From contig QCCD01000008.1 of assembly GCA_003281405.1 (NCBI GenBank), positions 1 through 64,000 on the forward strand: a stretch of DNA of 64,000 bases, written 5' to 3'. The DNA is from Prochlorococcus sp. AG-347-K16 (lineage in GTDB: Bacteria > Cyanobacteriota > Cyanobacteriia > PCC-6307 > Cyanobiaceae). Below are positions 3,386 through 57,026 of the stretch, piece after piece (position 1 is the stretch's first letter; each line of letters begins with the position of its first letter). A program made the position numbers and the translations under genes. A model generated the notes under the pieces. It saw only the letters and a program-made list of their open reading frames with translations, made no database searches and was not told the DNA's origin.

Positions 3386-4081
3386 ATGGTATCTATTTCT
3401 ATTAATTTTAAGAATTTATTGAAAAGGAAATATTATACGCTTTGTATGCCAAAGTTTAGATTTATTCTTACTAAAAAAAATTTCAAAAACAAATATAATA
3501 TTTTAGATATTGGTTGTGGGGGAGAAAGTCCTTTACAAACAAAAATTGTATTTCCATATTCAAGATATATTGGAATTGATAGAGACTTTAAATATCATAA
3601 TAGTCAAAAATCTATAGATATTATTGATAAAAAGATAAAGCATGACTTAAATGATAGTGTAGATATTCTAGAGAAAAAAATTGGCAATGAAAAATTTGAT
3701 ATTGTTATTTTTAATCATACAATCGAACACACTATAAAAGGATTGGAGATATTAAATACTATTATTCCTAAAATAAAGAGTAATGGCTGTGTTTATATTG
3801 AGTTCCCATCAACCAAATCATTATCTCTTCCAAGTATGAGAGGAACTCTTAATTTTTGTGATGATAAAACTCATTTAAGAGTTTATTCAATTAGAGAACT
3901 TGCAAATAATTTGCTTGTTAATCAGTGTTCTATTATAAAAGCTGGAAAAAGATTTAATACTTTTTCAATAATTTTAATTCCTTTTAGAATTGTCAGATGC
4001 ATATTATTTAAAAAAAGTCCTGCAGGTATTTTTTGGGATATAACTGGCTTCGCGGATTTTATATTTGCATATAAATTGTAA
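3386..4081 (+). CDS. class I SAM-dependent methyltransferase
   Basis: A 231-aa protein with SAM-binding motif I NILDIGCGGESP near residue 37, an acidic residue after beta-2 (YIGIDRDF), and the post-motif FDIVIFNHTIEHTIKGLE typical of type-11/type-12 methyltransferases. Its position among glycosyltransferases suggests methylation of a sugar or lipid-linked glycan, which is inference. It stands alone on the + strand between two minus-strand genes, with 263 bases of AT-rich sequence before it and only 2 bases between its stop and the converging GT9-like gene. Confidence 0.8.
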   Translation: MVSISINFKNLLKRKYYTLCMPKFRFILTKKNFKNKYNILDIGCGGESPLQTKIVFPYSRYIGIDRDFKYHNSQKSIDIIDKKIKHDLNDSVDILEKKIGNEKFDIVIFNHTIEHTIKGLEILNTIIPKIKSNGCVYIEFPSTKSLSLPSMRGTLNFCDDKTHLRVYSIRELANNLLVNQCSIIKAGKRFNTFSIILIPFRIVRCILFKKSPAGIFWDITGFADFIFAYKL

Positions 4082-4083
4082 AT

Positions 4084-5112
4084 TTATTTTATATCTATAA
4101 ATTTAGAAAATTTAGAAAATTTTCTTTTTTTAGAATTTTCTGGTCCAGTAAATAAAAGCGTGCAATTTACTCCAAGCATTTGAGCTATATTAGCCAAACC
4201 ATTATTTGCTCCAATATAATAATTAGATTGAGAAATTATATCTAATGAGTTTTGTATACTTAATTTCCCTGTTAAGTTTATAATTTCTATTTTTGTGAAA
4301 TTTAATTTTAGGATATTTTCAAGATGTATATTATAGTCTAATTCTTTTTTCTTATTAGCACCTAATATTATTATTGAAAAACTTTTATATTTTTTTGATA
4401 TTATTTTTATTTCATTTAAAATGTTTTTTTTAGAGGGTCTGAATTTTTTATAAAAATTATAAGTACTTAATACTATATATCTGGAATATCTATTATTATT
4501 TTCATCTTTAAATATACTTATTGGTAGAAATGTTTTTTGCAACTTAAGATTTATCCGATCTGTTTTATTCCAAATAAAAGGACTGGTTGACTCGTTTGAG
4601 TTATACAACTCTTTAAAAGGTTTTAGTCTGAAATGGTATGGATCATCGAATTTAATTTTATAGAGATTCCTAGTAATAAAATTAACATGGTTTTTATTTA
4701 TATATCCCTTACATTTTCTTTTACCTAAAAGTATTGAGATAAATAAATTTAGAAAACTAGGACTAGGAAATATAAAAGTTTCAAAACAGATGATTTCATT
4801 CCATTTGTATAATTTTACAGAACTGATAGGAAAATGATGTCTTTGCAAATAAGGGGGCAAGTGAGCTAATTTAACTAAATCATGTTTTTTAGAACTAGTC
4901 ACAATATCAATAATTTTTGAAAGCATAATTAAATCTCCTAATCCTAGAGAGGGAGGAAAAATAATTAAACATGAATTTTTTTTTATCTTTTTATTTTGGA
5001 AATTATTGATAATTTTAGAGATTATTAAAGAAAACAATATTTTCCCATAAATTAAAAAGGAAACATCTGATTTCCTTTTCATAAATATTTTTTTTAAGAA
5101 GGTTTTTGCCAT
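4084..5112 (-). CDS. glycosyltransferase family 9-like protein
   Basis: A 342-aa protein. GT9 hallmarks are PSLGLGDLIMLSKIID near the N-terminus, the nucleotide-side SIIILGANKKKEL, and the C-terminal YYIGANNGLANIAQMLGVNC followed by LLFTGPEN. The usual heptosyltransferase D(T/S)G is replaced by ANNG, which may mean a different donor. The N-terminus is basic, fitting peripheral membrane association at the inner leaflet where LPS and O-chain sugars are added. It lies 33 bases downstream of the asparagine synthase gene on the same strand, so the two are likely one transcription unit. Confidence 0.72.
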   Translation of the reverse strand: MAKTFLKKIFMKRKSDVSFLIYGKILFSLIISKIINNFQNKKIKKNSCLIIFPPSLGLGDLIMLSKIIDIVTSSKKHDLVKLAHLPPYLQRHHFPISSVKLYKWNEIICFETFIFPSPSFLNLFISILLGKRKCKGYINKNHVNFITRNLYKIKFDDPYHFRLKPFKELYNSNESTSPFIWNKTDRINLKLQKTFLPISIFKDENNNRYSRYIVLSTYNFYKKFRPSKKNILNEIKIISKKYKSFSIIILGANKKKELDYNIHLENILKLNFTKIEIINLTGKLSIQNSLDIISQSNYYIGANNGLANIAQMLGVNCTLLFTGPENSKKRKFSKFSKFIDIK

Positions 5113-5145: not shown

Positions 5146-7083
5146 TCATTGATTTATCCAAGATTGCCAAATTAGGATTGTCCATAATAATTCAGTATTT
5201 TCTGAGTTTCCCTTTAAATGTAATCTCCAGATTTTTTTAACCTCACTCGATGAAAGATAGTCTTGTTTATTTATTAGATCAGTATTGAGCAGATCATCTG
5301 CCCATTCCCTTAATGGACCTCTTAACCAAGTCGCTAGAGGAATAGAAAAGCCATGTTTATTTCTATTGAAATAAGATTCTGGAATCATTTTAAAAAGTAT
5401 TTCTTTTAAAGGGGATTTGCTTATATAATTTTTGCCATTGCGAGAAAGTTTTTTACTAGATTTTATATTCCAGGCTATTCTGGCGATTCTTTCATCTAAA
5501 TAAGGAGAACGAGTTTCTAGTCCAACATGCATTGCGGCTCTATCTATTTTTACCAAAATATTATTTGGAAGATAAGAAATAGAGTCAGCTAACATTACCC
5601 TCTCTGCATTAGAAGGAGCAATTATATTATTCATAAAAGGTTTACAATATTTAATTTTATTAGGATATTTATGAAAAAATTCTATATTTCTATTATTACT
5701 GAGAGTATTTTCATACATATATTCTATTTCTGAACTACTTAGAATACAGTCAATAAATTTTCTATTCCTTTCTTGTGCAAGATCTTTATTATTGAAAGGA
5801 TAAAATTTTATCAAATTTGCAGAGAAATTTTTTAAAAGGCTTGGGAAATTCCTGAATTTCTCATGAATTAAAGGCAAGAATTTATGCCTATTATATCCAC
5901 CAAATAATTCATCAGCCCCATCTCCACTTAAAGCAACTTTTATATTGCGATTACTTATTTCTTTGCTTATTAGATATGTAGCGATTTGAGATGCATCAGC
6001 AAATGGTTCGCTGTATATGCTAGTTATTTTTGGTATTATGTCTTGAAGATTATTTTTAGATAATTTTATTTCATTGTGATCAGTCCCTAAAAAGCTTGCG
6101 ACTTTTTTTGCAAATGGCCCCTCATCAAATAGTTCTTCGGAATAACCTGTTCCAGGAAAAGATATGCTAAAAGTTTTAACTTTTCTGGAAGATTGCTTCT
6201 GTAAAAGAGCTGTAATCAAGGAAGAATCGATACCTCCAGATAATAATGTGGCAATTGGCACATCCGCTAATTTCTGCTCTTTCAAAACATCATTTAATGT
6301 TTCCTCTAATAATAAAATTTTCGATTCATGATTTTGTGATTCAAAGCATTTTTTTGAGATATTGTTTATATCCCACCAACATATTTGATTTTTTAAAATC
6401 TCTGGTGAATAAAAATTTTTCTCCGAAATTTCTATAAAGTTCCCTGGTTCCAGTTGGTATATATCTTTTTGAATAGATTTTGGCGCGCATACATAGCCAT
6501 ACTTTAGAAAATCGGAAAAAGCTTCATAATTTATATTTTTTTCTACACCTGGGATAGACCATATTGCTGACAAATCAGAAGAGAAAGCAATTACTTGATT
6601 TTCAAAGTCTCTTATTTTAATTCTTCCCCAATAAAGAGGTTTTTGACCAAATTTATCTTTTGCAAGAATTAATTTTCTCTCTTTTTTATCCCATAATGCA
6701 AAAGCAAACATTCCATAACATTTTCTAAGTGTTTTTTTAATACCCCACTCTTGAATGGCATTTAGCAAAACTTCTGTATCAGAAGAGCTTTTCCACCCTA
6801 AATAATTTAACTCTGATTTGACTTTTTCAAAGTTATAGATTTCTCCATTAAAAATTATTATGAAATTTTCATTCGAGCTTACCATTGGTTGAGAACCATT
6901 TGAGCTTAAGTCTCTTATGGAAAGTCTGGTATGAGATAAAACAATTCCTAAATTTGGATCACTCCAAATCCCTCTTGCATCTGGCCCTCTTTTATATAAA
7001 CTGTTTGACATCTGATAGCCATACTCTTTAAGTATTTTTTCTTTGATATCAGATCCAAACCATAATCCAGATATTCCGCACAT
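5146..7083 (-). CDS. asnB: asparagine synthase (glutamine-hydrolysing)
   Basis: A 645-aa, two-domain enzyme. It starts MCGISG, placing the class II glutamine amidotransferase nucleophile at Cys2. The glutaminase domain shows RGPDARG, HTRLSI and FNGEIYN. The synthetase domain has the ATP-pyrophosphatase loop SGGIDSS near residue 280 and ALSGDGADELFGGY further on. Both active sites look intact. Such AsnB homologues inside polysaccharide clusters often amidate a uronic acid or other glycan carboxylate rather than make free asparagine. Given the many uronate-forming enzymes in this cluster, that is a reasonable inference here. The length is normal for the family. Confidence 0.9.
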   Translation of the reverse strand: MCGISGLWFGSDIKEKILKEYGYQMSNSLYKRGPDARGIWSDPNLGIVLSHTRLSIRDLSSNGSQPMVSSNENFIIIFNGEIYNFEKVKSELNYLGWKSSSDTEVLLNAIQEWGIKKTLRKCYGMFAFALWDKKERKLILAKDKFGQKPLYWGRIKIRDFENQVIAFSSDLSAIWSIPGVEKNINYEAFSDFLKYGYVCAPKSIQKDIYQLEPGNFIEISEKNFYSPEILKNQICWWDINNISKKCFESQNHESKILLLEETLNDVLKEQKLADVPIATLLSGGIDSSLITALLQKQSSRKVKTFSISFPGTGYSEELFDEGPFAKKVASFLGTDHNEIKLSKNNLQDIIPKITSIYSEPFADASQIATYLISKEISNRNIKVALSGDGADELFGGYNRHKFLPLIHEKFRNFPSLLKNFSANLIKFYPFNNKDLAQERNRKFIDCILSSSEIEYMYENTLSNNRNIEFFHKYPNKIKYCKPFMNNIIAPSNAERVMLADSISYLPNNILVKIDRAAMHVGLETRSPYLDERIARIAWNIKSSKKLSRNGKNYISKSPLKEILFKMIPESYFNRNKHGFSIPLATWLRGPLREWADDLLNTDLINKQDYLSSSEVKKIWRLHLKGNSENTELLWTILIWQSWINQ

Positions 7084-7116
7084 AATTTAACTATAGTATA
7101 CGAGTATATTCATTTT

Positions 7117-8388
7117 TTAAGGAAGCCAATTATTCTTTCCCTTTAAATCTTTATTTAAAAGATAAGATCTGTTTTTATCTAAATTAAAAGAGTTATATAT
7201 TTGTATGGTTTTCTTTACGACAAATTCCTCTGAAAAATTTTTGATAGCATTTTTTCTTGCTTTTTCAAGTCTTTTCCCTATGTCTTCATTTTTAAAATCA
7301 TAAATAATTTTATCGATGCATCCAATATAGCTTTTTAAATCATTTTTTTTACTAATATAAGAAGAATATTTTGAAGTTATTTTTTTTGCTGAATCTATAG
7401 ATGCTATGACAGGTATGCTAAGTGTATTTGCTTCAATAATTCCTCTTGGGAATCCTTCACCATAAAAAGATGGAACTAGAAGTATTGGGAATGAAATATC
7501 TTCTTTAAGTAACGGATTTTTCTGTATATTCATAAATTTAACATTTTTATAGTTTTTCTTATAGTAAGAAATCTCTTTTTCTGTTAATGATTGATTTGAG
7601 GATGGATCAATACCACCAAATATTAAAAATTTATTTTTAGGAAACTTTTTTGAAAGATCTAAGAAAATTAATATACCTTTAGTTTTGAGTAATCTTGCGC
7701 AAAAAATAAAAGTTATTTCATTTCTGAAATTTTTATAAGACTTTCTTTTTAACCATTTACTGTTATTTTTGAATTTTGGTGACTTTAAAATATATTCTTC
7801 TGGCACGCCTGAACCTGGAATTAAATAGAAATTTTTATCATTTAAATTACATATTTGATTTGCTATAAAATTTATATCGTCTTGATTTTGAAAAATAAAA
7901 ACTGTACGACTTTTATTTAATGTAAATTTGAATCTTGATTTTCTTTCATAGGCATTAAAAAAATTTATTATTTTAAAAATAATAATAAAAAATATTTTTG
8001 AAAATACTTTAGAACTGGAAAAACGTCCAATTCCTGCAAAGGATAAGACACAATTAATACCAAAGAAAGAACTTACTAATGAGGTTATCAGATTTGCTTG
8101 AAGAGTATGTGAATGAATCAATTTTGGTTTAATTGCTCTGATTAAGAGAATCATTCTTAGAAATGATATACAAAATGAGAATAAATTTTGATCTTTAGCT
8201 CTACTCATTCTCCATGGTATATGAATCAACATTTCAGATAAATTTTTTGATGTAGAATCATAAGGAGAAAGAGCTATGACGTGATTTTTAATCTTTTTTA
8301 TCTTTTCAATAAGTAATTTCCGATAGTGATATAAATACCAGCTACTATTGGATATTAATATTATTGGCCTTGAATTATTATCCGACAT
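7117..8388 (-). CDS. glycosyltransferase family 4
   Basis: A 423-aa GT-B fold protein. The N-terminal half has ISNSSWYLYHYRKLLI and KLIHSHTLQANLITSLVS, typical of the GT4 acceptor domain. The C-terminal half has FIFCARLLKTKGILIFL and then SFYGEGFPRGIIEANTLSIP, which holds the E-x7-E signature of retaining GT4 enzymes. It resembles WbpH/PglA-type transferases acting on undecaprenyl-linked sugars. It is followed on the same strand by asnB after 33 bases, and preceded 18 bases away by a broken methyltransferase gene. The substrate is unknown. Confidence 0.82.
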   Translation of the reverse strand: MSDNNSRPIILISNSSWYLYHYRKLLIEKIKKIKNHVIALSPYDSTSKNLSEMLIHIPWRMSRAKDQNLFSFCISFLRMILLIRAIKPKLIHSHTLQANLITSLVSSFFGINCVLSFAGIGRFSSSKVFSKIFFIIIFKIINFFNAYERKSRFKFTLNKSRTVFIFQNQDDINFIANQICNLNDKNFYLIPGSGVPEEYILKSPKFKNNSKWLKRKSYKNFRNEITFIFCARLLKTKGILIFLDLSKKFPKNKFLIFGGIDPSSNQSLTEKEISYYKKNYKNVKFMNIQKNPLLKEDISFPILLVPSFYGEGFPRGIIEANTLSIPVIASIDSAKKITSKYSSYISKKNDLKSYIGCIDKIIYDFKNEDIGKRLEKARKNAIKNFSEEFVVKKTIQIYNSFNLDKNRSYLLNKDLKGKNNWLP

Positions 8389-8406
8389 TATTTGTATAAC
8401 TTTAAA

Positions 8407-9224
8407 TTATTTTTTATATCCAATACAAACCCAATAGGGTGGTTTTTTGATGAATTTTAAATTAATTAAACCTGCTTTCTTCATCATTTTTTTTATCTCA
8501 ACTTTAGTAAAACGTTTTTCAATTTTTGTCGCAAATCTTTCAAATGCATCTGTTTGCATAAAGTAAAAAGATTTCTCTCTATAATCGTACAATAGTATTT
8601 TTTCTAATTCTAGTACTCTATATGATAAATATTTACTTAATTTTGCTAAAGGTAAATATATAAATAACACAATAATTTTACTGATAAATAATTTGGCAAA
8701 GAAAGGTATCCTGGTAATAACTTTTCTTGCAATGTCTGTAATTGACCAAATAAATTTAAACCATTTTGGTCTATTATCAAAACGATAATAAATATATATT
8801 AATAAAGGACCACCTTTATTTAATTTTGAGAAGCGGTCCTTTAATTCAACTTCAGGAAATGGCGTATAATGAAGAACCCTAGACAGTATCCAAAGTCTTG
8901 GGAATTTTCTTTAAGATTATTTCTTGAAGTTTAGGCACATTCAAATTTGCAATTATCAAATTCCTTCAAATTATTTTTAGCAACTAAAATTGCCTTCTGA
9001 CTTGTTTCTATAAAATTTAGTAGTTTAACTTTTTGGGCAATTAATTTGGCCCATCTACCGCTACCGCAACCAATGTCAAAACCAACTCTCTCTTGATCAA
9101 GATATTTCTTTGGAAATATATGAAAATATTGATTAAAAGCAGATCTTAAATTCTTTACCTTATCTTGTTTATAGTGATTCCACTCCATCCCAAAGGAATT
9201 AATAAGTTCTTTATCAATATTTTT
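8407..9224 (-). pseudogene. broken class I SAM methyltransferase
   Basis: Two open pieces belong to one ancestral gene. The N-terminal piece (8931-9188) carries VGFDIGCGSGRWAKLIA, a SAM-binding motif I, and stops at a TAA (8931-8933) just after FECA. Beyond that stop the same frame reads ENSQDFGYCLG. A one-base shift after the CTAGGG near 8886 then restores L-H-Y-T-P and KDRFSKLNKGGPLLIYIYYRF, which runs into the C-terminal piece (8407-8670) ending in YWVCIGYKK. Upstream of ATG 9188 the frame continues as IDKELINSFG until a TGA. So there is at least one in-frame stop and one frameshift, and perhaps a lost start. A sequencing error is less likely because there are two separate lesions. Confidence 0.8.
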
Positions 9225-9457
9225 CAGTTATTTAAATTAAAAATATATTTTAATCCTTATTTGAATAATATATATATAACTAAAAACTAACTAATTAAAT
9301 TTATTTAACTATTTTATAGTTAAAAATATAAAATTTTTGAAATTTTTTAATCATAAAATTAACTAATTTGAGTTGCTGTTTTGTGAATTTTTTATTTGAC
9401 AGAAAAATATAATATTAATATATAAGAAAGTGCTTATTTTAAAAATTATAAAAAAAT

Positions 9458-10024
9458 ATGAATGATTTTAAACGTAATTTACTTTTAAAGTTTTTTAGAA
9501 TTTTCTTTGATGAATTAAAATTTTTAACTACTCAAGATATCTTATGTGTTGGGAAGTACAGATTTATACTGCAATTTATGAAATCAAAATTAATGGGAAG
9601 AAAGGGACTACTTTTGTTAATGCCTCCTGAGACAAGAATTATTGGTATCGATAATATTAAAATAAATGGTTCTTTATTAAAAAGTAAGTTGCTGAGATCC
9701 TTTATTTCTTCGCGCCTTTACATACAAGCAATTAATAAAATTTTTATAGATGCATCAGTTCTTATTGGTCCAGATGTAAAAATTATAAGTGCAAACCATA
9801 ATTTAGATGATTTTGATAATTGGGATCCTGCAGATGCCATCCAAATAAAAAAAAATGTCTGGATTGGAGCTAATGTCGTAATACTTCCTGGAGTTTATTT
9901 GGGAGATAATTGCGTTGTTGGTGCAGGCTCAATAGTAACAAAGTCATTTGGTGATAATTCGATCATAGCTGGAAATCCTGCCAAACTAATTAAAAAAAAG
10001 TCTAAAATAGATAATTATCAGTAA
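9458..10024 (+). CDS. left-handed beta-helix acyltransferase (hexapeptide-repeat O-acetyltransferase)
   Basis: A 188-aa protein. The C-terminal half is a hexapeptide left-handed beta-helix: VWIGANVVILPGVYLGDNCVVGAGSIVT, ending in IIAGNPAKLI. The likely catalytic histidine lies in SANHNLDDF, matching the conserved NHxxxxF/D region of WbbJ/maltose acetyltransferase-like enzymes. It probably O-acetylates a sugar of the surface polysaccharide using acetyl-CoA; the target is inferred from context only. Its 3' end overlaps the converging glycosyltransferase gene by 23 bases (10002-10024). A 230-base, very AT-rich spacer precedes it. Confidence 0.83.
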   Translation: MNDFKRNLLLKFFRIFFDELKFLTTQDILCVGKYRFILQFMKSKLMGRKGLLLLMPPETRIIGIDNIKINGSLLKSKLLRSFISSRLYIQAINKIFIDASVLIGPDVKIISANHNLDDFDNWDPADAIQIKKNVWIGANVVILPGVYLGDNCVVGAGSIVTKSFGDNSIIAGNPAKLIKKKSKIDNYQ

Positions 10025-11174
10025 CATTTTTAGCGTATCTTTCCCAAGAATAATCCTTAACTATTTTAATGCTTTCATTCCCCATTCTGATAACTTCTTC
10101 TTTGTTTTTCAAAAAGTATTCAATAGAATTTATAAGGTTTTCAGAATTACCAGCCTTAATAACAAAACCATTTCTTTTGTTTTCAACAATTGATCCAGAT
10201 TCTTTTGTACATATTATTGGCAAGCCAGAGGCCATCGCTTCATAGATACACTTGGCAGATCCTTCAATGAAAGATGGATGAATAAGGACATCAAATAATT
10301 TGTAAATATTATTTTTTGAAGTATCAATAAATCCATGTTTAAAGATTTTAAATTTTAAATTATTTAATAGATTTTTCTCCTCGTTAAATATTCGACCAAA
10401 GAGATGTAATTCAAAAACTGGCTGCTCACTTTCGGAGATTCTATTTAAATCATTTATCAACCATCTAATTCCTTTCCTCATGTTGACGACTCCAACGAAA
10501 CCAATTCTTAAATTTCTATTATTTGAGCTTCTTGATCTTGAAGTTTCAAACTTTTGGTGGTTTACTCCAAAGGGTATTGTTTTTAACTTTTTAGGGGATA
10601 TTTGATATTCATTTATTATGAAATTACTTGTAAAAGTTGATGGCGATATTATTATCTCTGAAATATCAAAAATATTTTTTTCGTTTTTGATATGACTATC
10701 TTTAGTAGTCTTATCTAAATAGTATTTGGGATGAATTTTTGTGTGTAATAATGAAATCTTTGAAGGGTTCATAGCACAATCTTTAATGATTATATAGTTT
10801 AATTTTTTTACGATAAATAATAACCAATATGATGTATCCCAAGAGTGAAAATATCTTTTAGATTTTCTATTAAGAATATAATGAATAAAAATTAAAGGAA
10901 CCGAAAAAGAGTTAAATATGAATAATTCGTATTTTCTCCCTGGAATATTTTGAAAGCCATAAATTCTTAATAGAGCAAATACTCTAGAAATTAAAAAAAC
11001 TATTTTTAGTGTCCAGATATTATTGATTTGCTTGTGTGTGTTTTTGGATGACCTACAAATTATGGTTATATCGAATTTATTTTTTGAATATTGGCAAATT
11101 TTTTTAGATCTATATCCAATTGAAGAATTTATTCCAAAATCACTAGCAATATGATGTAAAATTGCCCTTTTCAT
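10002..11174 (-). CDS. glycosyltransferase family 4
   Basis: A 390-aa GT-B fold protein. The C-terminal donor-binding domain is clear: RIGFVGVVNMRKGIRWLI, HLFGRIF, then HPSFIEGSAKCIYEAMASG with the E-x7-E pair, and GNSENLINSIEYFL near the end. The N-terminal domain is divergent, as usual where the acceptor binds. It lies 8 bases downstream of a methyltransferase gene on the same strand and is probably co-transcribed with it. The 23-base tail-to-tail overlap with the acetyltransferase gene is confirmed by both reading frames. Donor and acceptor are unknown. Confidence 0.85.
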   Translation of the reverse strand: MKRAILHHIASDFGINSSIGYRSKKICQYSKNKFDITIICRSSKNTHKQINNIWTLKIVFLISRVFALLRIYGFQNIPGRKYELFIFNSFSVPLIFIHYILNRKSKRYFHSWDTSYWLLFIVKKLNYIIIKDCAMNPSKISLLHTKIHPKYYLDKTTKDSHIKNEKNIFDISEIIISPSTFTSNFIINEYQISPKKLKTIPFGVNHQKFETSRSRSSNNRNLRIGFVGVVNMRKGIRWLINDLNRISESEQPVFELHLFGRIFNEEKNLLNNLKFKIFKHGFIDTSKNNIYKLFDVLIHPSFIEGSAKCIYEAMASGLPIICTKESGSIVENKRNGFVIKAGNSENLINSIEYFLKNKEEVIRMGNESIKIVKDYSWERYAKNVTDNYLF

Positions 11175-47273: not shown

Positions 47274-48554
47274 ATGAAACTCTTCCAACAAATGTTGGTT
47301 GCAGGTGCATCGTTGAGCTTATTAGCTCCTGTTGCTGCGCAAGCTTCCGACGCAGTCTATTTAGAAGAAATGAGTAGCTACTCACGTAGCAATCCAAAAT
47401 CTTCAAGACTTGATAGTAAAACATTCATTAACGAAGTTAGTGAAGATATTGCAATTCTTAAGAGCCGTGTAGATGGCCTCGAAGTTAAACAAAATGAATT
47501 TGAAGCCGGTGGTTTCTCAGATACAACTACATTAGATGGTAAGGCTGTTTTTGCTTTAATGGCAACTGACCACACCAAGCCAAACTCAACTGGGACTGCT
47601 CGTGATGCATTATCATCTGCTTATCAATACACAATGAATCTTAACTCCAGTTTTACTGGAGATGATAATCTTTACGTAAGATTAAGAACTGGAAACGGTA
47701 CTGGTAATTTTACTACTAAGACCTTTGGAACATACTTGAGTATGGGTACTGGTTATTCAGATGCACTTAAGGTTGACAAAATCTGGTATACCTTCCCAGT
47801 TGGTGAAAATAATACAGTTTGGGTTGGACCAAAAATTGAAAACTACTATATGCATGGAACTACACCTTCCATTTATAAGCCAGTAACCAAACAATTTACT
47901 CTTGGTGGTAATGGTGATGCATATGGTGCAAGTACCGACTCAGGTTTTGGTTGGGCGTATAAAGCTGATAATGGCTTTGCTATAAGTTCTAACGTTGTTT
48001 CCAAGCAGAATCTAACAACAAATGGTTTATTTACTGACTCATCTAAACAATCATGGGCTACTCAGGCAGGTTACACGACTGATCGATGGTCAGTATCTAC
48101 GATTGTTAACCAGAAATACAACGGTTGGACTGATGGTTACTACGAATCAGCAGGACATACCCCTTCAACAGGTGTAGGTAACTTTACTGCAATTGGTTTA
48201 AGAGGATGGTGGAGACCAATTGAGACTGGGACAGCAATGCCTTCAGTTTCCCTTGGATATGATACTACTGACCATGATGGAGCTCCAGCGGCATCTAACA
48301 ACTCAACAGCATGGTTTGCTGGATTATCTTGGCAGGATATGTTCCAAGCCGATGACAGAATCGGAGTAGCTTTTGGACAGCCTACAACAAATGAAGACGA
48401 AACTGTAGATCCATTTGCTTACGAAGCGTATTATGAATTCAAAGCTAATGATTCTGTTACTATCACACCTACTGTTTTCGGTGGAAGCGATAGAAGTGGA
48501 ACAGCTGGCGATGATGTATTCGGTGCGGTTTTACAAACAACTTTCAAGTTCTAA
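47274..48554 (+). CDS. outer-membrane porin
   Basis: A 426-aa precursor. The signal peptide is about residues 1-24 (MKLFQQMLVAGASLSLLAPV, then AAQASD). A short N-terminal helix follows (FINEVSEDIAILKSRVDGLE), resembling the coiled part before the barrel in cyanobacterial Som porins but without a visible SLH domain. The rest alternates polar and hydrophobic residues as beta strands (AFALMATDH; SLGYDTTDHD), ending with aromatic Phe (LQTTFKF), a usual outer-membrane insertion signal. It should pass small solutes. A strong terminator follows. Codon use looks like that of a well-expressed gene. Confidence 0.9.
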   Translation: MKLFQQMLVAGASLSLLAPVAAQASDAVYLEEMSSYSRSNPKSSRLDSKTFINEVSEDIAILKSRVDGLEVKQNEFEAGGFSDTTTLDGKAVFALMATDHTKPNSTGTARDALSSAYQYTMNLNSSFTGDDNLYVRLRTGNGTGNFTTKTFGTYLSMGTGYSDALKVDKIWYTFPVGENNTVWVGPKIENYYMHGTTPSIYKPVTKQFTLGGNGDAYGASTDSGFGWAYKADNGFAISSNVVSKQNLTTNGLFTDSSKQSWATQAGYTTDRWSVSTIVNQKYNGWTDGYYESAGHTPSTGVGNFTAIGLRGWWRPIETGTAMPSVSLGYDTTDHDGAPAASNNSTAWFAGLSWQDMFQADDRIGVAFGQPTTNEDETVDPFAYEAYYEFKANDSVTITPTVFGGSDRSGTAGDDVFGAVLQTTFKF

Positions 48555-50930: not shown

Positions 50931-50983
50931 AAAATTAAGATTATTATAAAAATTTCTTTATTCTGTACATACTTATAAAAGGC

Positions 50984-51068
50984 GGAGAGGTGGCTGAGTG
51001 GTCGAAAGCGAACGACTCGAAATCGTTTAATAGGAAACTATTCGTGGGTTCGAATCCCACCCTCTCCG
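50984..51068 (+). tRNA. tRNA-Ser (anticodon CGA)
   Basis: An 85-base cloverleaf. Acceptor arms are GGAGAGG and CCTCTCC with discriminator G, the anticodon stem is AACGA/TCGTT around CTCGAAA (anticodon CGA, reading TCG), a long variable arm TAATAG-GAAA-CTATT typical of tRNA-Ser, and the T arm is GTGGG-TTCGAAT-CCCAC. No CCA is encoded. The accessory genes at 51.2-55.1 kb start just beyond it. Confidence 0.97.
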
Positions 51069-51258
51069 GTTTAATAGGATAATTAGCACTCTTAATTTTT
51101 TAAGTTCTAATTCAAATTGCAGTGATAGAGAAGAGTTCTATGAAATATCAATTTCCGTATAGTTAGTTTTTATCTTTATCAGTGTTGGTGGATTCCTCAA
51201 GATCGCTTGTTAATAAAAAAGTTGTTCAGGTTCTTCTGGAGGTAATTAGATATCATCT

Positions 51259-52255: not shown

Positions 52256-52504
52256 ATGCCTTTTAAAAATTCAATATCAAAATATGATTGGCAGTTTTTT
52301 GTAACAAAATTTTGTTTAACCTCAGTTTTTAGTTTTACAGATTTAGTTGGAGTTATTGATAAAGAATATTTTTACTTTGTACCAAGATTAATTATTGATC
52401 AACCTTATAGGATTTCTTCATCATTTTTAACTCACCCGGATTTAAATCTTTTATTAAGTAATCTCGGTGGAATAATTCTCACAATAGAAGAAACTAAAAA
52501 CTAG
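52256..52504 (+). CDS. small protein resembling a rhomboid N-terminal fragment
   Basis: An 82-aa protein: KYDWQFFVTKFCLTSVFSFT, then FVPRLIIDQPYRISSSFLTH, PDLNLLLSNLGGIILTIEET. The second part looks like the start of a rhomboid protease (a first helix, then the loop and the H-x-D-x-x-H-L-x-x-N motif), but the second His is Leu (DLNLLLSN) and the protein stops right after. The serine and later histidine are missing. It may be a decayed rhomboid or a small protein using that fold start; the call is tentative. Confidence 0.45.
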   Translation: MPFKNSISKYDWQFFVTKFCLTSVFSFTDLVGVIDKEYFYFVPRLIIDQPYRISSSFLTHPDLNLLLSNLGGIILTIEETKN

Positions 52505-52653: not shown

Positions 52654-53202
52654 ATGTTTAAAAAAGATATTAATTTTAAATCAATAGTTTTTAAAGTCTT
52701 TTTTACTTATTTAGTAATATATCTTTTGGCACTAATATTTAAATATAATTATGATCTTGAATCCTTACTAAATAATGTTCAATACAAATATTTGATAGTT
52801 CTAAATTTAATTTCTATATTTTTAGGTTTGCCTTTATCAATCATTTTTGATTTTATGCTAATAAAGATTTTTGGTTTAAATTATATTTTATTTTTTTCTC
52901 CTGCTTTAACTATTTTAAGTGTAATTCAGGTACTTATTTTAAGAAAAATTAATTTTAAATTTTCAAGAAGTATCTACTTTTTTAAAAAACTAGAAAATAA
53001 TTATTTTGTGAAATTATTTGAAAATTTTACTTTTAAATCTTCTTATATACTAATCATAAGATCTTTTCCAATTTTGCCTCATGTTTTAGGAAGTTATATT
53101 ATCGCCTCTTCAAAAATAAAAAAATTTTTTATTTTAATAAATACATTTTTAGGTTCAGTTTTTTATTATATTTTTCTTTATTTAATAATTAGGAATGTGT
53201 AG
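52654..53202 (+). CDS. VTT/SNARE-associated-like membrane protein
   Basis: A 182-aa integral membrane protein with about four to five hydrophobic segments and extreme AT-driven residue use (Lys, Ile, Phe, Leu, Asn). LGLPLSIIFDFMLIKIFGLN and ILIIRSFPILPHVLGSYIIA (with the R-x-x-P-x-x-P region), followed by SKIKKFFILINTFLGSVFYY, resemble the TVP38/DedA (VTT) core. No neighbour clarifies its role. The similarity is by eye. Confidence 0.55.
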   Translation: MFKKDINFKSIVFKVFFTYLVIYLLALIFKYNYDLESLLNNVQYKYLIVLNLISIFLGLPLSIIFDFMLIKIFGLNYILFFSPALTILSVIQVLILRKINFKFSRSIYFFKKLENNYFVKLFENFTFKSSYILIIRSFPILPHVLGSYIIASSKIKKFFILINTFLGSVFYYIFLYLIIRNV

Positions 53203-53382
53203 TTAATTTACCTTTAGCATTATTATTTTTATAGAAAATTAATCTAACTTATATTGGCAAAAAAAATTTTTCAAAGAAATAGATTTAACTATAAAAATAT
53301 TTGAAATATTAGATCATTCCCAACAGAAGTATATTTTGGAAAAATTAGATTGAGATTAGATTTATACATAACATTTTTGAGT

Positions 53383-53388
53383 ATAATT
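53383..53388 (+). promoter_or_regulatory. candidate -10 box for the barrel gene
   Basis: A perfect TATAAT lies 35 bases before the ATG of the barrel protein. No clear -35 at 16-18 bases; TG occurs two bases upstream of the box, near but not exactly an extended -10. Confidence 0.4.
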
Positions 53389-53423
53389 TTAATAACAGAT
53401 TTCTGAAGTTAGGAAGTTTTTAT

Positions 53424-55118
53424 ATGAAGTTAATGTTTTATATATTTTTATTTAGTCAATTATTAAATTTTCTTGGAGTGTTTGCAGAAAAACTAAAAGA
53501 AAGTTCATCTGTAAAAAATCCTGTTAATTGGCAAAAGGTGGAGGAACTAAAATCTAAACCGTTGAAAAATATTATTTGGAAATCTTACAAAGGGGATGAA
53601 AATTATTTTAAAAAGGAAAACAAAGAAGGTTTTTCAATAAATCAATTTTCGGAGACAAAATCTGCCGTGATGGATCCTTCAATTTGGCGCAATCGGTCAT
53701 TGCGTTTTTCCTTTGAGGAAATTGATATGCCAGATGCCGGCGAATTCATGGGTTTATACAGTATAGGGGCTTACGATCAACTCAACTCTTGGCTTTATGG
53801 CGGTATAACTCTTTACGGTGCAGCGACAGGACGTCGTGGGGGGTTTTTTACTGGTGGTTACACCATAGGAGTGGAACATAAGTTTACCGATAAGTGGATT
53901 CTCGACTTTGGAGGCTATGTGGGCGCTGGCGGCGGCGGTGCTGCTGCGCAAGGAGGAGGATTAATGCTTAGGCCCCATATCGGTCTAAAGTACGACCTTA
54001 GCTGGAGCTCGCTGGGGCTCAATTATTCTTATGTAGACTTCCCAAATGGAGATATTTCAAGCGATGCAATAGCTCTTTCACTGGATATTCCTTTTACGTC
54101 ACCGGCATTAAATTGGGAAAATGATGGATTTACACAAGTTGATTACTTCGGAGCCGAATTGAGCAATGTGACTCGCCATCGATCGCACTTAGCCGCTCGC
54201 GTTCGTGCTTATTATCCGTCCAGCGACAGCAAAACAACATCCGGTGGATCGTTTGATGACGCATTTGGGCTGGTCGGCGTAGATTATTCTTATTTTCTTG
54301 ATGAAAACTGGTTTGCCACATTTGAGACAGCCGGTGCTTTTTCAGGTGGCGTTGGCGGATACGCAGAACTTTTGGGTGGGATAGGCTATCGCTTACCACT
54401 AACCAGAGAAAATCGTTTGGCCCTCCTCCCTGCCCTAACCATTGGCGGTGCCGGGGGCGGAGCGGTTGAAACCGGCGGAGGATTTGTTGCCCGAGCAAAT
54501 CTAGGGTTGGAATACCGACTCTCTCCTGATCTAAATATAATTTTGGACGGCGGCTATCTTACAGCCCCAGATGGTAATTTTGATACTTCATATGTCGGCT
54601 TCAATTTGGCATATGTAATGAAAACTTTTGCTCAGGACCAAAAAGGAGCACCCTTAACCGGAACAAACTTGATACAAACTAATAAATGGCGTTTTCGCCC
54701 GGCGCAACAATGGTATTTTGATGCGCAACGTAAGGATAGCTCTTCTCGAGATATGCAACTTTTGGGAGGAAAAATTGACTGGTTTGTAGGCGATTGGTGG
54801 TATCTTACAGGACAAGGATTAAGTGCTTATGAAGGAGGAGCGGGTGGATATTCAGAGGGACACTGGGGGTTAGGCATTCTTGGCCCAAGCTGGAATAATT
54901 GGCAAATCTATGGCGAAATGCTTATAGGTGCTGGAGGGGGAGGAGGCGTCGATAGTGGCAGCGCCTTACTATATAAACCAAGTATCGGGTTAGAGTACAA
55001 ACTAAATGACGACTTCAGCCTTCAAACTGGCATAGGTAAAGTAATTTCTAAAGAAGGGAATCTTGATGCTAATACCTTGGATGTAAGTTTGGTTTGGCGT
55101 TTTGGGACCCCAAAATAA
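53424..55118 (+). CDS. glycine-rich triple-repeat outer-membrane beta-barrel-like protein
   Basis: A 564-aa precursor of a kind I do not recognise by name. Residues 1-21 are a signal peptide (MKLMFYIFLFSQLLNFLGVF). Residues 22-90 are a polar linker in the usual AT-rich codons. From about residue 83 the DNA becomes GC-rich (hand count: 35 of 60 G+C at 53881-53940, 31 of 60 at 54181-54240, 33 of 60 at 54901-54960, against 15 of 60 at 53461-53520). The protein has three similar modules (about residues 108-235, 281-410, 446-560). Each has an aromatic strand region, a Gly-rich hinge (VGAGGGGAAAQGGG at 166; IGGAGGGAVETGGG at 340; IGAGGGGGVDSGSA at 501), then a GL(K/E)Y(D/R/K)L strand and a closing (F/V)-rich strand. 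It ends WRFGTPK. It looks like a transferred outer-membrane protein. Confidence 0.72.
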   Translation: MKLMFYIFLFSQLLNFLGVFAEKLKESSSVKNPVNWQKVEELKSKPLKNIIWKSYKGDENYFKKENKEGFSINQFSETKSAVMDPSIWRNRSLRFSFEEIDMPDAGEFMGLYSIGAYDQLNSWLYGGITLYGAATGRRGGFFTGGYTIGVEHKFTDKWILDFGGYVGAGGGGAAAQGGGLMLRPHIGLKYDLSWSSLGLNYSYVDFPNGDISSDAIALSLDIPFTSPALNWENDGFTQVDYFGAELSNVTRHRSHLAARVRAYYPSSDSKTTSGGSFDDAFGLVGVDYSYFLDENWFATFETAGAFSGGVGGYAELLGGIGYRLPLTRENRLALLPALTIGGAGGGAVETGGGFVARANLGLEYRLSPDLNIILDGGYLTAPDGNFDTSYVGFNLAYVMKTFAQDQKGAPLTGTNLIQTNKWRFRPAQQWYFDAQRKDSSSRDMQLLGGKIDWFVGDWWYLTGQGLSAYEGGAGGYSEGHWGLGILGPSWNNWQIYGEMLIGAGGGGGVDSGSALLYKPSIGLEYKLNDDFSLQTGIGKVISKEGNLDANTLDVSLVWRFGTPK

Positions 55119-55248
55119 AGCTCTCAACCTTTTATTTTGTCTGGAAATAAAGTTGGAATATTAGTGTAAAGGTAATTATGGATAACTTCTTCAAGAAAAA
55201 AATTGAAATTGGAATCTAATTAGATTTTTTAAATGAATTAAAAAAAGA

Positions 55249-55500
55249 TCATTCCTCCCAAAACGGGTCTGTAGTGAGAGTAACTTTTAATAGACTTTTT
55301 TTATTATTTTTAATATCACTTATACAAGCTCTTACCGTTTTACCATTAACATCTATTTCACAGGCACCACAACTTCCTGTGAGGCAACCAGTAGGGATTT
55401 CTAAACCTGCTTTTTCAGCAGAAGAAAACCAGTTATCTCCATCTGAAACAAATGTTTCTTTATTGTTTGGCCATATTACTTTAATATATTTTTCTTTCAA
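55249..55500 (-). CDS. 2Fe-2S ferredoxin (plant type)
   Basis: An 83-aa ferredoxin-like protein. The cluster ligands are in GCLTGSCGACEI (C-x4-C-x2-C) and the fourth in TVRACISD. It is shorter and less acidic than photosynthetic PetF, so it is probably a specialised electron donor rather than the main ferredoxin. Its 3' part ends in KVTLTTDPFWEE. The start overlaps the cobQ stop by 4 bases, so the two are translated together; a role in reductive steps near cobalamin synthesis is possible but unproven. Confidence 0.9.
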   Translation of the reverse strand: MKEKYIKVIWPNNKETFVSDGDNWFSSAEKAGLEIPTGCLTGSCGACEIDVNGKTVRACISDIKNNKKSLLKVTLTTDPFWEE

Positions 55501-57026
55501 ATTAAAAATGATTTGAGATTTAAATGTTTGTGGAATTCATTCGCAAGTTTGTCAATAATGAATTCTCTTTTCTCTTTATAAGATATTGATTTTTTATTTA
55601 ATGTTGGTAAATTTTTACTCTTCCTTATTAAATTAAAATATTGGTCTCTCCATCTGTCATTTTCGAAGATCCCATGAATGTATGTTCCTGCAATAGAACC
55701 GCCTTTATTATTTTCTTTGTACCAACCAAGATCTAAATCTTTGAAAATAGGTTTTAACTGTAATGAATTATGAATATCATCCAATACGGTTTGACCATTA
55801 TGAATTTCAAAGCCATTAATTTCTGATTGGCATGGCCATATAGATTGGGAGTTGATTTGACGTGTTAATTTTTTTTTAAAGAAAGTCGTTTTTAATGGTA
55901 GTAATCCAATCCCTTTAATTTTTTGTTCAGAATAGTTTTTGGAACCCTCTTTAAAATAAGGATCTTCTAGTGTTGTTCCTAACATTTGTAAACCTCCACA
56001 TATTCCAATAATATTGCCTTTATTATTAGAATATTCCCTTATATCATTTGATAAGCCAGAATTTTCAAGAAAGATTTGATCTTTAATCGTTTGTTTACTA
56101 CCAGGCAGAATAAGGCAGTCATACTTACTCAGTTTCTGTGACTCTCTAATCCATTCAATTAATATTGTTGCTTCATTTTCTAATGGATCAAAATCCGAGA
56201 AGTTACTTATAGATGGTAATTTTATAATCCCAATTTTGATCTCAGGGTTTGTGATAGTGATTTTTTTTTCTAATAAATCTAAAGAATCCTCTGGAGGAAA
56301 TGAATCATATAACCATGGAATAATTCCAATAACAGGGATTTGAGTTTTATTCTCTATCCATTTCTTCCCTTCTTCAAATAATAAAAGGTCTCCTCTGAAT
56401 CTATTTATAATAATTCCCTTAATAAGCTTCTTTTCTTCAGGCTTCATTAATTCAAGAGTACCAATTATTTGTGCGAATACGCCTCCCCTTTCAATATCAG
56501 TAACCAAAATGCAATTTGCATTTAAATATTTAGCAATTCTTAGATTAGTCAGATCTCTATGAATTAAATTCATCTCCACTGGACTTCCAGCACCTTCTAT
56601 TATTAAACGACAATTTGGATTCTGTGCGTAAATAGACTTTAAACTTTTTTTAATTACTTCCCAGCCTGAAATAAACCAATCTTTATAGTAATTTTGTGCG
56701 GTTGTGGTCCCTATGCTCTTGCCAAGGTGTATCACCTCGCTTATTGAGTTTCCTTGTGGTTTTAATAAAATGGGATTCATCTCTGCAGAGGGATTAATAC
56801 CACAAGCAAAAGCTTGAAGTGCTTGTGAATATGCCATTTCTCCACCTTCCCAATCAACCCAAGCGTTGTTACTCATATTTTGTCCTTTAAAAGGAATTGG
56901 TTCTTCTCCTAAATTTTTAAGAATCCTGCAAATAGCCGTAACCGTTAACGATTTTCCTGCTCCACTGGAAGTACCTAGGACCATTATTGGTTTCCTTATT
57001 TCATGTAATTTTGCTTCTAAATCCAT
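55497..57026 (-). CDS. cobQ: cobyric acid synthase
   Basis: A 509-aa enzyme that amidates four side chains of adenosyl-cobyrinic acid a,c-diamide in cobalamin synthesis, using glutamine and ATP. The ATP-binding N-terminal domain starts IMVLGTSSGAGKSLTVTAIC and has FKGQNMSNNAWVDWEGGEMA. The amidotransferase domain has LPGSKQTIKDQIF, NIIGICGGLQMLGTTLEDP with the Cys nucleophile, and IAGTYIHGIFENDRWRDQYF. Length is normal. Prochlorococcus is known to make pseudocobalamin, so an active pathway is expected. Confidence 0.95.
   Translation of the reverse strand: MDLEAKLHEIRKPIMVLGTSSGAGKSLTVTAICRILKNLGEEPIPFKGQNMSNNAWVDWEGGEMAYSQALQAFACGINPSAEMNPILLKPQGNSISEVIHLGKSIGTTTAQNYYKDWFISGWEVIKKSLKSIYAQNPNCRLIIEGAGSPVEMNLIHRDLTNLRIAKYLNANCILVTDIERGGVFAQIIGTLELMKPEEKKLIKGIIINRFRGDLLLFEEGKKWIENKTQIPVIGIIPWLYDSFPPEDSLDLLEKKITITNPEIKIGIIKLPSISNFSDFDPLENEATILIEWIRESQKLSKYDCLILPGSKQTIKDQIFLENSGLSNDIREYSNNKGNIIGICGGLQMLGTTLEDPYFKEGSKNYSEQKIKGIGLLPLKTTFFKKKLTRQINSQSIWPCQSEINGFEIHNGQTVLDDIHNSLQLKPIFKDLDLGWYKENNKGGSIAGTYIHGIFENDRWRDQYFNLIRKSKNLPTLNKKSISYKEKREFIIDKLANEFHKHLNLKSFLI

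Follow-up and report, generated by a model that had tools for sequence, protein, structure and literature searches.

A probable chimera of a resident leader and a foreign body of predicted tandem barrels in a gene for a predicted outer-membrane protein of Prochlorococcus

The stretch of DNA analyzed here (hereafter, the window) comprises 64,000 nucleotides of contig QCCD01000008.1 of Prochlorococcus sp. AG-347-K16 and contains, at 53424..55118 on the forward strand, an open reading frame that encodes a protein of 564 amino acids and has no internal stop codons, as claimed in an initial, sequence-only reading of this region. Upstream of this gene lies an ORF for a multi-pass membrane protein (52654..53202, +), which has no Pfam match but presumably resembles DedA/VTT. 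Downstream, two ORFs on the opposite strand, 55249..55500 (-) and 55497..57026 (-), which we take to encode a 2Fe-2S ferredoxin-like and a CobQ-like protein, respectively, serve as markers of this locus in relatives. Farther upstream, the window encompasses an iron-uptake porin of the por_somb family (47274-48554; 103.1 bits against the cut-off of 100 for NF033921), a tRNA-Ser gene (50983-51069), and an ORF of 82 amino acids (52256-52504), by our assumption rhomboid-like, the counterpart of which consists of about 200 amino acids in many relatives, so that the version in the window is truncated. The last codons of the 564-aa gene, just before the stop, include a conserved inverted repeat, TTTTGGG-AC-CCCAAAA (55100-55115); a hairpin predicted across the stop codon is a candidate for a conserved 3'-terminal RNA element or recombination site, with double changes in 0 of 10 pairs.

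The nucleotide composition changes sharply within the gene. In a sliding plot of 300-nt windows, the GC content rises from 0.18-0.24 at 53150-53599 to 0.45-0.52 at 53750-54649, stays at 0.42-0.47 up to 55099 and declines to 0.30 past the gene, in agreement with the jump noticed originally. The step is located just past an N-terminal leader with a GC content of about 0.24 and is followed by a body with a GC content that is mostly between 0.42 and 0.52. The hand counts of 31-35 G+C per 60 bases reported in the sequence-only reading are matched or exceeded by 431 of the 1635 sliding 60-nt stretches of the gene (at least 31 G+C; maximum, 44). The GC fraction at fourfold-degenerate sites (GC4) is 0.39 for the body in the window versus 0.22 for the leader and 0.14, 0.10, 0.10, 0.22, 0.13, 0.10 and 0.12 for seven other genes of the window. 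Across 38 copies of this body that are found behind window-type leaders in the genus, GC4 averages 0.396 (range 0.30-0.50), against 0.18 for the resident bodies that occur behind the same type of leader, both the 38 'long' ones and the 10 of 'short' length, with the highest value at 0.23. Because the body departs from the host genes at fourfold sites, its foreign look is real and is not an artefact of glycine codons; such atypical silent-site composition (0.39 vs 0.10-0.22) is characteristic of horizontally acquired sequence. The dN/dS values of 0.11-0.18 between the body in the window and six other Prochlorococcus bodies, and of 0.13-0.32 in three further body pairs, indicate that the body is under purifying selection; the leaders, with dN/dS of 0.15-0.53 in six pairs, are constrained more weakly than the bodies.

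The window protein matched no Pfam or NCBIfam family up to an E-value of 1 and had no match in PHROGs or PADLOC, in accord with the original remark that no named family fits. A search of the PDB by sequence yielded no match either, a lone hit at E 0.22 being taken as chance, and the por_somb model (NF033921) did not match this protein while it scored with the neighbor at 47274-48554. A single ordinary porin family without internal repeats, which the sequence-only reading had set against its own view, was not what we found. Glycine-rich stretches at residues about 167-179, 341-353 and 502-509 are followed, by direct reading, by GLKYDL, GLEYRL and GLEYKL, respectively, that is, by the GL(K/E)Y(D/R/K)L motif behind the three hinges that had been described, and the homology of the modules is supported by profile comparison with hhalign (E 3.6e-6 for modules 1 and 2, 1.6e-7 for 1 and 3, and 1.6e-11 for 2 and 3).

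The alignment of the bodies starts at W88, and each of the three modules is predicted to form an 8-strand barrel. Module 1 (residues 88-227; 53685..54104, +) has eight strands in the model and VIA Z-scores of 17.4 to a designed transmembrane barrel and 16.7 to NspA; module 2 (residues 250-403; 54171..54632, +) also has eight strands and a Z-score of 17.1 to OmpW. Module 3 (residues 422-564; 54687..55115, +), when folded alone by AlphaFold2 (residues 418-564; alignment of 44 sequences, with rows from all three modules), yielded a confident 8-strand barrel (pLDDT 90.2, pTM 0.83), by prediction a closed up-and-down barrel of the kind that occupies about 140-170 residues, which VIA aligned with OprF (Z 17.4, 124 residues, rmsd 2.1), NspA (16.8), a Legionella porin (16.8), OmpW (16.2) and OmpA (15.7). 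The full-length AlphaFold2 model, for which 36 aligned sequences were used (the window and 35 of the 38 loci from the peptide-pattern scan described below, with the incomplete L175, L180 and L181 left out), arranges 24 strands as three groups of eight but is weak (pLDDT 63.4, pTM 0.45); residues 88-225, 251-400 and 418-560 of this model each match an 8-strand barrel with a Z-score of about 17. Given the weakness of the full-length model, the case for separate barrels rests on the single-module model and the local matches, which make it likely that the body folds into three separate closed 8-strand barrels, as had been surmised from the sequence. By this prediction, the protein would belong to the multi-barrel proteins, which have at least two barrel domains per chain, and its predicted location is the outer membrane. 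The presumed outer loops are short and glycine-rich, and in 39 sequences they are more conserved (0.94, 0.85 and 0.92 for modules 1-3) than the turns (0.81, 0.83 and 0.88); conservation is among the lowest in the inter-module linkers (0.75 for residues 228-249 and 0.80 for residues 404-421). Since the loops are more conserved than the turns, phage-driven variation of loops is not seen in the body, only the exchange of whole bodies.

The leader (codons 1 to about 72; 53424..53639, +), which was delineated by a leader search, DNA homology to the old-type genes described below and its GC4, consists of a signal-peptide-like helix followed by a stretch that is presumably periplasmic and contains a conserved motif, IIWKSYK (codons 50-56, 53571-53591). 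It is joined to the body through a variable junction of about 15 codons (53640..53684, +), from which onward there is no DNA homology to old-type genes. Among the 266 genomes of the genus searched, strong leader matches (E up to 1.7e-7, 38-92% identity) were detected in 88 besides that of the window, and all 88 were fetched; the raw tally of 178 of the 266 also counts weak matches. Many genomes also encode a 411-aa family that the leader matches weakly (about 34%); these matches were rejected as chance and kept out of the strong-match counts: the family is a different kind of protein, the overlap of which with the leader, judged by eye, is a membrane helix plus a charged stretch. In addition to the window, 92 fetched loci were examined, for a total of 93 contexts, and 91 of these contain a leader-matching ORF; the two weakest matches, L138 and L139, have no leader ORF and hence are unclassified. 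In 38 of the 91 ORFs, the leader precedes the same body as in the window (hereafter BODY); a further 38 are 'long' genes (about 600 aa), 10 are classed as 'short' by length, and the remaining 5 are L103 and L140-L143, the latter being examples of the unrelated 411-aa family. The bodies of all 38 long genes match that of L063, and 9 of the 10 short ones match the C-terminal half of the L063 body only, the tenth gene, L101, having a fourth kind of body. Searches of Pfam and NCBIfam with seven other leader proteins gave nothing above cut-off; two Pfam matches (E 0.077 and 0.14) fell below it.

Several of these loci show individual peculiarities. In L101 (G263), the leader is joined to the unrelated fourth body at 4043-5026 (-), which has a weak Autotransporter match below the cut-off (E 0.14), and a fragment of the foreign body (5444-5674, +) adjoins the leader gene on the opposite strand. 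In L103 (G115), the leader ends as a 97-aa ORF (5574-5867), about 1.5 kb before the ferredoxin gene, and looks like a broken gene or a further variant. In L121 (G158; 5533-7464), the leader motif unit (EPLNKVIWKSYKND) is present in three tandem copies, and a similar-looking IIWEK unit is doubled in L172 and L176; judging from such copies, the motif looks like a putative repeated binding unit.

The locus of the window itself is occupied in 46 relatives by genes in which the leader precedes unrelated, barrel-like bodies of host composition. The CobQ-like gene is within the stretch read for all 9 of the short genes with the C-terminal half and for 37 of the 38 long genes; the remaining one, L077, runs off its contig. 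According to the sequence-only reading, host-like orthologues at the same locus in most strains would speak against a foreign gene; the locus is indeed filled in many relatives, but by different bodies. Twelve strains, counting the window and 11 relatives, have BODY at the cobQ locus, and leader and BODY are found elsewhere in 26, one of which, L060, is placed from one side only, as the stretch ends 99 nt past the gene. In two strains (L098 and L093), the leader and module 3 alone form an open frame. No leader, long, short or BODY ORF was detected at the CobQ locus in any of 37 genomes read, which include 24 of the 27 genomes with BODY elsewhere or with L101 and 13 without a strong leader match (in L219 and L223, the stretch is cut off where the contig ends); hence, within the stretches read, each genome has one leader gene or none. 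In several strains with no leader gene at the locus, the upstream membrane-protein gene directly adjoins the ferredoxin gene.

Comparison of the two kinds of genes at the cobQ locus delimits the replaced segment. In four comparisons of BODY with long genes, DNA homology ends at nt 200-217 of the gene and returns 57-63 nt past the new stop, at a point that lies 60-164 nt before the end of the old coding sequence; when the window is compared with two old-type loci, homology extends through nt 203-217, is absent across the body and is back at +61 past the stop, that is, at -60 before the old stop. The intervening 3' tail of about 45-60 nt (55119..55178, +) travels with the body, as found by aligning BODY copies at different loci. 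Behind it is a scar (55179..55237, +), now untranslated, that represents approximately the final 60 nt of the resident gene that was replaced; it was identified by homology and by a shuffle test against the ends of 35 of the 38 long genes (L077, L123 and L131 left out): the mean score of the window scar, 50.9, was matched by 0 of 200 shuffles. The scar beats all 200 shuffles in 11 of the 12 strains with BODY at the cobQ locus. The exception, G247 (49 of 200), does not reach significance, as its remnant is both longer and shifted further downstream, which places the old end beyond the tested stretch; this remnant spans 164 nt (E 3e-29 for an alignment of 207 columns, of which about 164 represent old coding sequence). 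One frame of the L052 remnant can still be translated as FGIGIKLNF, compared with the C-terminus FGIKLNFLY of the old genes. The persistence of the 3' end of the old gene behind the body implies that, within the gene, a resident body gave way to the foreign one; the opposite sequence of events is rejected because the conserved old C-terminus would have to arise from non-coding sequence. From these sequence comparisons, it appears highly probable that the gene is a chimera with a history of replacement. The proposal that a local leader had been joined to a foreign body is thus borne out by the 46 relatives and the old 3' end behind the stop; the sequence-only reading did not reveal that a resident barrel had been replaced, nor that the same body also occurs behind other leaders elsewhere.

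The phylogenies of the two parts of the gene were analyzed separately. In the tree of 40 body copies (the incomplete L093, L098 and L106 left out), a single clade (SH-aLRT 97) contains 11 of the 12 bodies from the cobQ locus; the twelfth, that of G247, stands apart, grouped with G076, L172 and L176. In the tree of 86 leaders (246 columns; 42 of the 83 inner branches open), the leaders of the cobQ-locus BODY genes are found at three places among the long leaders: G247 with G102 (95), G100/G240 with G033 (79), and the others with two BODY-elsewhere strains (95); the branches starred in this tree require at least 3 changes of the BODY/long label. The body is also found behind two further leaders, distinct from each other, in L155 and L156, neither of which has a phmmer match, with E up to 10, to the 86 window-type leaders; the leader of L172/L176 is perhaps distantly like the window type (best E 2.6e-4 for L176, none for L172). 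In L155, the body is inserted inside another host gene and is flanked by a 44-bp direct repeat (95%); among 14 genomes of the genus of L155, an intact version of the interrupted gene was not found, the single match being at 25% and containing stops. The divergence of BODY is uncoupled from that of the hosts, as is typical of horizontally acquired sequence: dS between L155 and L156 is 1.23 for groEL vs 0.13 for BODY, and that between L172 and L176 is 0.13 vs 0.78. For 45 non-independent pairs from 10 genomes and this one host gene, the Spearman correlation between the two dS values is -0.70; groEL of L155 or L156 shows 67-68% identity to that of the other strains, so that these could be paralogues. 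In L107 (G084; 5997-10936), leader and body adjoin genes that, by eye, look phage-like (terminase-like, tyrosine recombinase-like and primase-like).

The body was detected in 6 of 386 cyanobacterial genomes (one of the six partial), all from the genus of the window; it is also carried by L155 and L156, which are labelled Prochlorococcus and belong to another genus-level group. The sole close relative found outside Prochlorococcus by a scan with two peptide patterns, which could miss more distant relatives elsewhere, is encoded on a contig of a Verrucomicrobiota MAG (L177; 69% identity over 475 aa; GC4, 0.556; contig GC, about 0.49). Its neighbors look non-cyanobacterial and include polysaccharide export (Poly_export/SLBB) and Wzz proteins by Pfam and a prepilin-like one by eye. 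The L177 protein (5206-7437) contains a long N-terminal part before the three barrels, with a weak LptD_N match below the cut-off (E 0.048), and three stretches of Pfam OMP_b-brl at 28.3 bits, 0.4 below the cut-off of 28.7. Two distant relatives (32-33%) were detected among 245 genomes of the order of L177, and no further one among 288 genomes drawn from its phylum. Patchiness in the host phylum combined with a close relative in another phylum is a further mark of horizontal acquisition and, together with GC4, upholds the original view of the body as foreign. The body likely descends from a lineage now represented by the Verrucomicrobiota protein, which would be the donor side; the body is rare, and L177 is not the immediate donor. 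A second donor phylum, suggested by a 'Crocinitomicaceae' MAG (L178), was rejected: the contig has a GC content of 0.25-0.37 outside the body core and carries a Prochlorococcus leader, features that identify it as a misbinned Prochlorococcus contig. No phage relatives were confirmed in viral_contigs, by two exact peptide patterns only, or in 50,697 phage records, and the plasmid search likewise yielded no relative; the BFVD matches of a module are at the level of the fold only.

These observations have to be weighed against several other explanations. The body is glycine-rich, and the gene could be native, with a high GC content reflecting merely glycine and alanine codons, but this we find barely credible because even the lowest GC4 of the BODY copies (0.30) exceeds the highest among the resident bodies, and a remnant of the old gene lies behind the body. 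The many copies in Prochlorococcus compared with one close copy in Verrucomicrobiota could speak for transfer in the opposite direction, from Prochlorococcus to the Verrucomicrobiota MAG. However, the GC4 of the body is above that of the host genes in all 38 copies, leaning toward the value of L177; the more distant full-length homologues (33%) were found only in the order of L177, in sensitive searches that covered that phylum and cyanobacteria; and no genus other than that of the window has the body in the cyanobacterial sample. Such a reverse course of events therefore seems very improbable. With respect to the fold, the 24 strands of a single chain could form one large barrel, that is, a wide porin or transporter, and Foldseek indeed ranks TonB receptors and large porins first for the low-confidence full model. 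These matches, however, reach a TM-score of just 0.09-0.18 by query length, whereas each third of the model aligns separately to 8-strand barrels, module 3 closes on its own, the two strains with module 3 only keep an open frame, and the linkers are poorly conserved, all of which makes a single wide barrel unlikely.

With regard to function, the protein might be a part of a polysaccharide-export system, working with an OPX/Wzz system in the donor lineage and used by Prochlorococcus for the surface glycan of its own cells, the model being LptD or the two-barrel GfcD, which are thought to act with lipid-anchored glycans. This analogy draws on the Poly_export/SLBB and Wzz neighbors of the L177 gene, on its sub-threshold LptD_N match, and on GfcD, which is predicted to contain two barrels, one of them with a lateral gate, and for which a polysaccharide role has been proposed (PMC11494523). 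An exporter of the GfcD/LptD kind would be expected to have a lateral gate or a jellyroll bridge and a glycan as substrate. Against it, the two distant Verrucomicrobiota relatives have no such neighbors, by eye, in the 3-4 kb read, the Prochlorococcus protein has no LptD_N match, and an 8-strand barrel offers no obvious lateral gate; we regard an export role by this analogy as unlikely, too. Somewhat less remote, albeit still rather unlikely, is a receptor or decoy that faces phages, varies by frequency-dependent selection and has no role in transport. The presence, absence and type of the body differ among relatives at one locus, BODY moves independently of groEL, and the G084 copy adjoins the phage-like genes seen by eye; yet, unlike in receptors under loop selection, the presumed outer loops are short, glycine-rich and conserved, and there is neither a relative on phages nor a PADLOC match in the searches described above.

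We consider it quite probable that, as a whole, the gene is best explained as a chimera of a resident leader and a foreign body of three tandem OmpA/OmpW-like barrels that replaced the resident one. In this scenario, a resident Prochlorococcus gene, consisting of a host leader and a barrel-like body of host composition, would have lost its body to a foreign one. The leader would direct export via Sec and leave a periplasmic tether bearing the IIWKSYK motif, whereas BAM would insert the three small closed barrels side by side, with the short, conserved, glycine-rich loops forming one outer face. Barrels of eight strands are too narrow to serve as a diffusion pore, which suggests a surface scaffold or binding protein rather than a general porin. 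We infer that the protein functions as an exported outer-membrane surface scaffold that is exchanged by recombination; recombination within the leader and the 3' homology would swap whole bodies between strains, altering the cell surface in one step, with pressure from phages or grazers as a plausible driver. Such a role in surface exchange is possible, if doubtful. A broader and somewhat stronger, still tentative, idea is that the leader acts as a socket, present in one copy per genome, such that sets of barrels are swapped behind a conserved export leader via intragenic recombination, and foreign multi-barrel bodies spread through the genus as plug-ins behind any leader; the sets would be the foreign triple barrel, the resident two-part body, the C-terminal half of the latter alone and the fourth type. 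If so, the cell surface would be re-equipped domain by domain.

Domain-level horizontal transfer appears to be caught in the act here, with the leader, the junction, the foreign body and the fossil end of the old barrel all within 1.8 kb and the unreplaced state preserved in sister strains. This suggests how, in an organism with a streamlined genome, the outer membrane can be remodelled from foreign parts with no foreign export signal being required. The system also offers a natural test bed for the question whether small barrels in tandem fold independently, like beads, and for the drivers of surface turnover in a very abundant marine phototroph.

No paper on this family or on leader-body exchange in Prochlorococcus was found among the literature matches listed (titles and starts of abstracts, with few subscription papers covered). 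Tycheposons are island elements of Prochlorococcus, with an integrase and a tRNA attachment site, and the present case resembles them in that some BODY copies adjoin mobile-looking genes (L107). Each module is similar to OmpA, OprF, NspA and OmpW in having 8 predicted strands, with VIA Z-scores of about 15-17, but the protein differs from them in the three tandem barrels per chain, the short glycine-rich loops and the absence of a match to any of the sequence families searched. Multi-barrel outer-membrane proteins are already known (Solan et al. 2021, as cited in PMC8592465), and, like these and GfcD, the protein described here is predicted to contain more than one barrel in one chain; unlike GfcD, which is predicted to have 12 + 13 strands, there are 3 x 8 strands here, and these are exchanged between genes as one body. 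Finally, in the replacement flexible genomic islands of aquatic prokaryotes, in which homologous recombination is involved (PMC4033161), content at one place depends on the strain, as it does here; in contrast to those islands, the exchange described here takes place inside one gene, the leader being kept and the domain behind it swapped.
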